A DNA stretch of 50,032 bases from Bacteroidota bacterium. Lineage in GTDB: Bacteria; Bacteroidota; Bacteroidia; Chitinophagales; Saprospiraceae. The stretch is taken from contig JAFMDF010000029.1 of the NCBI GenBank assembly GCA_017857395.1, positions 1 through 50,032 on the forward strand, written 5' to 3'. The notes beneath the pieces are model-generated. The model was not told where the DNA came from and ran no database searches. It saw only the letters and a list, made by a program, of their open reading frames with translations. Shown here piece after piece: positions 25,712 through 27,896 of this stretch. Positions within the stretch are counted from its first letter, which is position 1; each line of letters starts with the position of its first letter. The position numbers were made by a program, and so were the translations under genes.

Positions 25712-27133
25712 TTACCCATCTGTACTGAGAATCTTAATCTCTACCCGTTGATTTTTTCGCCGCCCACCAGTTGTATTATTAGAAGCAATTGGTTTGCTTT
25801 TACCGTACCCTTTATAACTTAACCGTCCCTGATTGATTCCTTTTTGTTGCAAGTAAGTGGTAACTGCTTTTGCTCTTGCAGTCGATAGTTGATTACAATA
25901 AAAATCGTCACATAAACCGCTGGTATGTCCGCCAACTTCAATTACAATTTCTTCATTTTCTTTTAGGAAATTATAGATATTATCCAAACTAGCAGCAGCG
26001 GATTGTGTAATGGTAGAATCGTTCATTTTAAAGGACAGAGAGCTAATCTTAATAATTTGTCCTTTACTAATTTCAGCTCTGGAGAAACCCTCTATCTGCA
26101 TACTCTTTTTAGGTCGTGTGGATGGAATAATTTTAGGTTGAACAGGAGTAGTATAATTCTGTGGTTGCTCAGGTGGTTTTTGATAAGCTACTACCTCTTC
26201 TGGTTCGTAAATAATAATAGCCGAATCTTCAGTTGTACCTGCTTTATTCGTCGCTTGCATAACCACCCGATTATTCCCTCTTTTTAAATTGGTTGCCTTC
26301 GCAGCTACTTCTCCTGTCCTACCATCAAAGGTAAAATTATTACTAATCTTTCCATTCACCTTAAACGTAATAGCTAATTTTTTATCAATATTCTTAATCG
26401 CTGCTTTTACAGCAAATTGTTTGTTTTTAGTGACTACAGGCGCATTTTGCGGCGTTATAAATGTTACCTCTGGCATTTTCGCTATAACTGGTGCTTCATC
26501 ACAAGGCATCGGTGCAATATCAGACGCATTATCTACTAAAATATTTCCATTATAAGGAAATAAAACAGGCGTTTTATAGAAAGCCTCTAAGGTGATATGC
26601 GTATGCGATAGTTTAGGCTCAAATTTGAAAACATAGGGTTGCCAGGACGTATTGGCAACTAAAGGGGATTCTGCCAAACGTTCTCTTTTGGCACAATGTC
26701 CATCTCCTCCCCATATTACCAATTTAATGGGCTGTACATAATTCGCTCTAGTTCCTGTTTCTCTACTGGCACTTACATATAATTCAGAGCGAGAAAGGTT
26801 TAAACTAAAGCTATAACAAGTACCAGATTGAATAGGCGAACTCAGATGTTGAGAAACCCGCTCCCAAGTGTCATTATCTCTAACCACCATTCCTAAATAA
26901 GTATTCCCATCACTTGGGTATTTGATGACATCAAACGCACCACTAGGATGTGTATCTGGGGCAGATTCACCAGGGAAGCCACAATCTCTCCAACCATGCG
27001 GTACTCTTTCCGCACGGGGATAATCTTCAAAAGAAGGATTGATTAATCGAATAACACCTTCCTGTCCAAAAACAGAAAAAGGAGCAGTACCTAATAAAAG
27101 AGTAAGGGTAAATATTACTAATCGGTTGGTCAT
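25712..27133 (-). CDS. OmpA-family outer-membrane protein with carbohydrate-binding-like N-terminus
   Basis: A 473-residue envelope protein. It has a signal peptide (about 1-23, SVFG|QE) and an N-terminal beta-sandwich (about 28-205: LINPSFEDYPRAERVPHGWRDCG...CYSFSLNLSRSE...ITLEAFY) like those called carbohydrate-binding. A short bacterial-Ig-like or linker region follows (about 225-310), then a Pro-rich stretch (about 313-340). The C-terminal OmpA domain (about 365-470) has VGGHTSGLCDDFYCNQLSTARAKAVTTYL and GYGKSKPI...RRKNQRVEI, which binds peptidoglycan. It therefore likely links the outer membrane to the cell wall. It is monocistronic. Confidence 0.88.
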   Translation of the reverse strand: MTNRLVIFTLTLLLGTAPFSVFGQEGVIRLINPSFEDYPRAERVPHGWRDCGFPGESAPDTHPSGAFDVIKYPSDGNTYLGMVVRDNDTWERVSQHLSSPIQSGTCYSFSLNLSRSELYVSASRETGTRANYVQPIKLVIWGGDGHCAKRERLAESPLVANTSWQPYVFKFEPKLSHTHITLEAFYKTPVLFPYNGNILVDNASDIAPMPCDEAPVIAKMPEVTFITPQNAPVVTKNKQFAVKAAIKNIDKKLAITFKVNGKISNNFTFDGRTGEVAAKATNLKRGNNRVVMQATNKAGTTEDSAIIIYEPEEVVAYQKPPEQPQNYTTPVQPKIIPSTRPKKSMQIEGFSRAEISKGQIIKISSLSFKMNDSTITQSAAASLDNIYNFLKENEEIVIEVGGHTSGLCDDFYCNQLSTARAKAVTTYLQQKGINQGRLSYKGYGKSKPIASNNTTGGRRKNQRVEIKILSTDG

Positions 27134-27565
27134 AAACCAGAAGTGTTTGTTGAGTCAATGTTTTTAGAACGCTAAAACAGAGGAGTTTTGTTTTATCAAG
27201 AGGAGAAAATTACAATAAAAATAGGAATATTAATAGATTGTTAAGAAAATTTAGACCAGCGTATCCTATTTTTAGGGTAGAACATGATTTTGTAAAGACT
27301 ATCATTTATTTATTCTATAGAATAAAAATACTTAAATTCACCACTACTAGAACGTCTTTTCTTTTTTTTGAAATTATCTTCATTCCATTATTAAACATCA
27401 TTACTTGTAAATCTGGAAGGTTAGTAGCTTACTATCAACTAAGACACCTAAGTTATTCAAGCATATTATCAGCCATTCAAAATTCGCTTTACTGATGTGA
27501 TAGATTAATTTTGGAAATTTTCGGAATTAAACATTCTATAAGAAAAGTGTTAAAAAAACTTCAAA
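27134..27565. other. Intergenic gap without a convincing gene
   Basis: AT-rich sequence upstream of the OmpA-like gene and of the small-RNA promoter. One open frame (27238-27495, TTG start) translates a basic, hydrophobic, low-information peptide and is not supported. Nothing else is recognised. Confidence 0.6.
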
Positions 27566-27593
27566 TTTGAATCAGATTTAGTGTTTACTTTTG
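27566..27593 (+). promoter_or_regulatory. Bacteroidota -33/-7 promoter for the candidate small RNA
   Basis: TTTG at 27566-27569 and TACTTTTG at 27586-27593 match the -33 TTTG / -7 TAnnTTTG pair with 16 bp between them, slightly short. The start of transcription would be near 27600. No coding sequence follows before the terminator at 27771-27803. Confidence 0.6.
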
Positions 27594-27599
27594 TGCAAA

Positions 27600-27803
27600 A
27601 TATAACCAAATAGAGAGAATCATTGGCAATAACTTCTAAATACAAAGAAGGGGCTATATTTTATTGAGGTATAGCTTTGAGGGATGGTTCACGGCGATTT
27701 TATTAATTACGGGGAATTGAATCTTGGAGTTATTTTAGAATAATACAATCCAATTGATTACAAAATAAAAAATCTCCTTGAAGTAGCTACTTCAAGGAGA
27801 TTT
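27600..27803 (+). ncRNA. Candidate structured small RNA of about 200 nt
   Basis: A promoter and a strong terminator bracket about 200 nt with no reading frame. The interior can fold: AATCATTGG (27618-27626) pairs with CCAATTGATT (27750-27759, one bulged T). TTCTAAA (27634-27640) pairs with TTTAGAA (27734-27740). Inside are a hairpin GGCTATA/TATAGC (27652-27658 with 27670-27675) and a small AATT/AATT hairpin near 27692-27717. The end is the hairpin at 27771-27802. I do not recognise it as tmRNA, RNase P RNA or SRP RNA. A 6S-like regulatory RNA is possible but the branched fold does not clearly support it. Confidence 0.5.
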
Positions 27804-27810
27804 TTTATTT
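27771..27810. terminator. Strong bidirectional terminator shared by the small RNA and tRNA-Leu
   Basis: AATCTCCTTGAAGTA (27771-27785) pairs perfectly with 27788-27802. An A-rich tract precedes it and a T6 tract follows, so it works on both strands: for the candidate small RNA on + and for tRNA-Leu/pnp transcripts on the minus strand. Confidence 0.93.
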
Positions 27811-27813
27811 ATG

Positions 27814-27896
27814 TGCCCGGAGCGGGACTCGAACCCGCACGTACGTAGTACACATGTCCCTCAAACATGCCTGTCTACCAATTTCAGCACCCGGGC
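27814..27896 (-). tRNA. tRNA-Leu (GAG anticodon)
   Basis: An 83-nt class II tRNA. The acceptor stem GCCCGGG pairs with TCCGGGC with one G-U, discriminator A. The D arm contains AAATTGGTAGA, the anticodon stem CATGT/ACATG encloses the loop TTGAGGG with anticodon GAG (reads CUC/CUU), there is a long variable arm, and the T arm is GCGGGTTCGAGTCCCGC. CCA is not encoded. It lies downstream of pnp on the same strand and ends in the bidirectional terminator. Confidence 0.95.

Follow-up and report, generated by a model that had tools for sequence, protein, structure and literature searches.

A candidate lineage-specific small RNA that may end at a tRNA-Leu terminator in a Saprospiraceae genome

The gap between an OmpA-like gene and a tRNA-Leu gene in this Saprospiraceae genome is best read as holding a lineage-specific intergenic small RNA (sRNA) gene, one of a pair, whose transcript would end at the terminator of the tRNA. 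We lean towards this reading, if only slightly. The evidence for it comes from the layout of the locus, from a second copy of part of the candidate RNA elsewhere in the genome, and from the hairpin that the two copies have in common.

Results

Layout of the candidate sRNA gene

The window, that is the whole stretch of 50,032 nucleotides analysed here, is a single contig (C272) of a genome of 10.15 Mb in 631 contigs. This assembly (G000; contamination 4.82%) is larger than those of eight genus-mates, which measure 3.7-7.1 Mb. In the window, 679 bases separate the start of the OmpA-like gene (25712-27133, minus strand; a reading frame named by eye) from the 3' end of tRNA-Leu (gag) (27813-27896, minus strand; located by tRNA and Rfam scans). 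In the closest genus-mate, G006, the syntenic gap lacks anything corresponding to 27254-27764, as judged by eye and with MAFFT; the GC content of this part is 0.28 compared with 0.35 for the window. The candidate transcript would cover 27598-27806 on the plus strand, with a start deduced from where the -7 element lies and an end at the T-run of the terminator.

A first-pass annotation of this locus had pointed to a -33/-7 promoter match, and the match is indeed present: a -33-like TTTG at 27566-27569 is followed, after a rather short gap of 16 nucleotides, by the -7-like element TACTTTTG at 27586-27593 on the plus strand. As described in two studies, the promoter of the phylum consists of a -33 TTTG and a -7 TAnnTTTG element (PMC7366714, PMC9723704), and the -33 element was reportedly not found in Flavobacterium johnsoniae (PMC7366714). 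The motif is not enriched window-wide, since its strict form (gaps of 16-23) occurs once per strand where 2.1 occurrences per strand are expected, and by itself it therefore proves nothing. Within 27254-27660 alone, one strict match is seen against 0.02 expected. A generic sigma-70 scan returned three matches against 3.9 expected, which is not above chance. The promoter region 27560-27613 also resembles two other upstream regions, one in the same genome (G000:C628:12254-12299, 80% over 46 bases) and one in a genus-mate (G007:C18:4618-4660, 82% over 43 bases), a likeness that perhaps reflects a longer promoter consensus in the genus.

About 200 nt had been described as being without a reading frame, and about 165 nt without a credible frame were found. 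Only one frame of at least 30 codons enters 27598-27764 (31 codons, minus strand, 27550-27645), and the other frames seen are shorter. No reading frame is conserved, as is expected of an intergenic sRNA, and the coding signal is weak.

A terminator that may read both ways

The strong symmetric terminator at 27765-27808 was the only one found by the terminator scan, against 0.2 expected, and the scan lists it in the direction of the tRNA (minus) only. In the plus direction, GGAGA is followed by six T, which belong to the A-T pairs that close the palindrome, and then by ATTT (GGAGA-TTTTTT-ATTT), so that by ordinary sequence reading the element should be usable as a terminator both ways. The earlier idea of a strong symmetric terminator serving both RNAs thus stands for the stem and, by the scan, for the tRNA direction, and by this reading of the T-run it would extend to the plus direction. 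The leading T-run on the plus side is 6 long in the window compared with 3-4 in all eight genus-mates. The terminator stems of G006, G005 and G002 have a closing AAAAAATC...GATTTT in common with the window, so that the window may have kept the older terminator of the tRNA in a form with an altered stem; this likeness was seen by eye, and MAFFT did not align it. The terminator stem CTTGAAGTAGCTACTTCAAG (window 27775-27798) recurs in a terminator-like palindrome at about 3207-3248 of L012, on contig C272 of G018, which belongs to another genus of the family; there it sits at an unrelated gene.

A second copy in the same genome

Part of the candidate RNA recurs on another contig of the same genome, C355 (blastn E 8e-6; 6e-6 when searched from the C355 side). 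Aligned without gaps, the window and the hairpin block of C355 are identical at 48 of 65 bases, and within the genome the motif GGTTCACGGCNATN6AANTNCGGGGAATTG, searched with up to 3 mismatches, is confined to these two places. Both copies sit directly upstream of a terminator whose other side faces a gene on the minus strand, namely tRNA-Leu in the window and a sulfatase-like gene, named by eye from its frames, on C355. The latter gene (L009/L127, 247-780) is interrupted near 520, where either a frameshift or a mistake in the assembly breaks it into two frames. Contamination is an unlikely source of C355, because its make-up matches that of the window: GC content is 0.346 compared with 0.351 for the window contig, and the tetranucleotide correlation of 0.98 equals that among pieces of the window.

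A motif search on C355 revealed a plus-strand promoter match, TTTG-N20-TAACTTCG, at 74-105 (TAACTTCG at 98-105), which would place the start at about base 110, two bases before a closing stem that begins at 112. Promoter match, closing stem, hairpin and terminator follow one another in this order as a compact unit, and the 127 nt from start to terminator fold with a z-score of -7.3 (-2.5 without the terminator). With all 111 upstream bases included, which corresponds to a transcript starting at the contig edge, another fold displaces the C355 hairpin.

The shared block as a probable RNA hairpin

The whole candidate RNA of the window folds with a z-score of -5.4. This strength comes from the terminator, because 27599-27762 without it reaches only -1.0, with 30 of 200 shuffled sequences folding as well. 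The branched fold closed by long-range pairing that had been proposed therefore does not go beyond chance. What the two copies share is a hairpin that the first-pass annotation had not observed, at 27671-27733 on the plus strand. Folds and the alignment of the two copies give it an outer stem of 12 pairs, a 3x3 internal loop, an inner stem GGUUC/GAAUU, a mismatch-rich module and a variable apical loop. On the plus strand the hairpin folds with z-scores of -2.7 in the window and -2.8 on C355, with 2 of 200 shuffles as good in each case; it was picked after looking, which makes these scores somewhat flattering. Folds of the minus strand are weaker (-0.9 and -1.5).

The comparison of the hairpins involves two sequences only. 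Standard pairs are formed at 19 of 20 positions in each copy, with one pair changed on both sides and three changed on one side. Variation is seen in the apical loop, with hardly any in the inner stem and its mismatches. Seven of the 17 substitutions fall in the 40 paired columns and ten in the 25 unpaired ones. When 17 substitutions were placed at random, the observed pairing was matched in 0.2-0.3% of 20,000 trials, and when the number falling in paired columns was kept, it was reached in 1.8-5.5%. Pairing was 95% in register and 32-55% with the partners slid against each other, a contrast that is partly built in, since the structure was derived from these two sequences. In a pair-count shuffle control, 260 of 500 shuffles reached the observed value, a test in which two rows cannot discriminate. 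On balance, these comparisons favour an RNA hairpin as the nature of the shared block.

In the full-length window RNA another fold is preferred, with AUAGCUUU paired to upstream bases, and the pairs of the conserved hairpin have a mean probability of 0.15-0.17. If the hairpin is imposed, a closing helix of nine pairs forms between 27618-27626 and 27750-27759, at 1.6 kcal/mol above the minimum. This would make 27618-27759 a possible rod on the plus strand.

Search for relatives

Four genus-mates are syntenic at the locus, with PNPase identities to the window of 94% (G006), 93% (G005), 93% (G007) and 90% (G002). All four keep tRNA-Leu and, by eye, a terminator, and the candidate RNA is absent from the gap in all of them, as read base by base; the closest, G006, is 55% complete, yet has the gap. 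In G004, G008, G003 and G001 (PNPase 78-79%), where the PNPase and OmpA-like genes lie on separate contigs, a terminator is seen and there is no hairpin block on the tRNA-Leu side. These eight stretches were read base by base out of twelve fetched; those from G009, G022, G017 and G018 were covered by a tRNA scan only, which found none. The gap differs in every genus-mate read, and 27240-27600 has no clear relative in the genus (best matches of 29-41 bases). It seems that the gap often takes inserts. In G002 (L069, G002:C164:11270-12600), it holds several hundred bases of its own with long inverted repeats, resembling a small mobile element.

The motif, with up to 3 mismatches, was found in none of 59 relatives, and a pattern one base longer in none of 395 other genomes of the order; a control with the reversed pattern gave one match, in G036. 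The exact pattern occurred at three places in wider genome contigs, all within protein-coding frames, and at none in viral contigs. We also built a covariance model, R1, from both copies; above 40 genomes it was run with stricter filters, under which weak matches are lost. The order and phylum samples show no genus-mates, which were searched apart. In the order, 8 of 395 other genomes matched at E ≤0.1 with 19.6-23.5 bits, compared with about 90 for the true copies, and all eight cross long open frames, as does a further weak match, on C54 of the own genome, beyond the two copies (the shortest frame, L119, has 141 codons). One weak match, at 1501-1532 of L116 (G159:C174), lies antisense in a frame that by eye reads as ribosomal protein L5, and it is similar to the inner portion of the hairpin in the window; with 396 genomes searched and an E of 0.008 per genome, chance alone would produce such a match. 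Among the eight genus-mates, R1 matched one weakly (G002, E 0.029), inside a deacetylase-like frame (by eye), and in the phylum it matched 3 of 394 others at E ≤0.005, one in a gene and two at plain terminators between converging genes. Distant blastn found no match in plasmids, and in phages it gave short, weak matches in 43 records; the best had an E of 0.02, and among the 10 listed the query was covered to 17-27%. No credible relative was thus found in the eight genus-mates, in even samples of the order (395) and the phylum (394), or in plasmids, phages and viruses. A check of conservation and covariation in relatives had been suggested by the first-pass annotation, and the absence of the RNA from them is half of the counter-evidence that it had named.

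Known RNA families

At curated thresholds, Rfam found only the tRNA in the whole window, and lax scans gave nothing convincing, which bears out the earlier impression that the RNA matches no recognisable family, 6S included. A diverged 6S or other housekeeping RNA would fit the length of about 200 nt and the possible rod fold, in which it resembles 6S RNA (RF00013) and 6S-Flavo (RF01685). The search with 6S-type models that had been advised gave no match in the own genome with either model. RF00013 matched none of 20 genomes, the own one included, and 6 of 14 controls. RF01685, also absent from the own genome, is a weak test, with 0 of 14 controls and 1 of 60 relatives matched (G036, below the cut-off). 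With either model nearly all relatives go unmatched here, so that the results carry little weight in this order. A housekeeping RNA is disfavoured because the candidate is absent from the genus: the hairpin is not credibly present in any of the eight genus-mates and is missing from the syntenic gap in four of four. The second copy, moreover, is only about 127 nt long, unlike 6S and 6S-Flavo RNA. We regard the chance of a housekeeping RNA as almost negligible. The possibilities of attC sites, group II introns, SRP RNA, k-turns and small ribozymes were also thought of and set aside.

Discussion

The main rival to an sRNA gene is that there is no RNA gene here, the terminator serving tRNA-Leu alone and the shared 65-base block being a duplicated, functionless relic in a fast-changing gap. 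Such a relic would agree with the genus-mates, which have the tRNA-Leu terminator without the RNA and a different gap in each case read, with a promoter motif that is not enriched, with a fold that is not significant once the terminator is removed, and with a terminator scan that lists the tRNA direction only. It leaves unexplained why both copies kept the hairpin and its position before a terminator, why their differences spare pairing more than random ones do, why C355 carries a coherent promoter-hairpin-terminator unit, and why the plus-side T-run is longest in the window. We consider a relic unlikely, yet serious.

The block might instead be what is left of a gene for a small protein, on the minus strand (NSKIQFPVINKIAVNHPSKL / NFKMQFPAVTLIAVNHPSKP) or on the plus strand. 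Several differences are synonymous in the minus frame, BLOSUM scores reach P 0.055 in that frame and 0.016 in a plus frame that has a stop in the window, and C355 has an open minus frame of 56 codons from an ATG. Identity in those two frames is nonetheless not above random (P 0.14 and 0.18, and at least 0.14 in every frame), the minus frame of the window stops a few codons past the block, and the searches gave nothing in Pfam, PDB or plasmids, seven phage records at the level of chance (E of 2 or higher), and no viral relative that was confirmed, all of which makes a protein remnant quite improbable. A small dispersed element, such as a MITE- or REP-like hairpin inserted twice, would account for two copies at unrelated places and for a gap that holds other inserts in relatives (L069). 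Such elements should be present in many copies, whereas there are only two, and the window copy is a poor inverted repeat as DNA because about half of its outer-stem pairs are G-U; we hold this origin to be highly improbable.

A lineage-specific sRNA thus remains the best reading. The RNA would be transcribed from a sigma-A-type promoter and stop at the tRNA-Leu terminator, and it would be one of two paralogues in the genome, with the hairpin at 27671-27733 as their common part. By analogy with other intergenic sRNAs, it would most likely act in trans, its hairpin binding an mRNA or a protein. The second copy, with the same layout of a hairpin before a terminator, strengthens the earlier proposal of a small RNA gene with the tRNA-Leu terminator. 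The proposal nevertheless shrinks from a new structured RNA to an orphan sRNA candidate with one paralogue, because the branched fold is unsupported, the 6S idea did not pass the tests applied to it, and the searches of relatives did not find the RNA.

As an intergenic sRNA, the RNA is a fair candidate of a known kind. Two studies give 49 high-confidence intergenic sRNAs for Bacteroides thetaiotaomicron (PMC7366714) and 85 Rfp RNAs, with a median of 176 bp, for Flavobacterium psychrophilum (PMC9723704). The candidate, compared with these sets via Rfam and the genome samples, is like them in length and in the lack of a credible frame, and would be like them in its putative promoter type and intrinsic terminator; unlike them, it is known from sequence alone, has no Rfam match and would end at a terminator that also serves a tRNA. 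Among the papers listed for small RNAs in Saprospiraceae, none concerned it by title and abstract start. A bolder idea, which we rate as improbable, is that a new RNA family begins here, defined by the hairpin with its near-invariant GGUUCACGGC / CGGGGAAUUG module. The hairpin would then be a protein-binding (decoy) module in at least two sRNAs of the lineage; one of these would have adopted the terminator of a tRNA to form its 3' end, and on the side facing the sRNA the T-run of that terminator would have lengthened.

The candidate has the look of a recent regulatory RNA specific to its lineage, and not of a widespread new RNA class, and a young sRNA that uses the terminator of the tRNA, with its paralogue on C355, is the most economical account of the locus. 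Should there be no transcript, the locus would be common intergenic DNA flanking the terminator of a tRNA. A transcript would make it a clear example of a bacterial sRNA of very recent origin, because the gap lacks the RNA in four close relatives and the terminator, which belongs to the tRNA, seems to be older. Examples of this kind illustrate how new sRNAs can acquire a 3' end.
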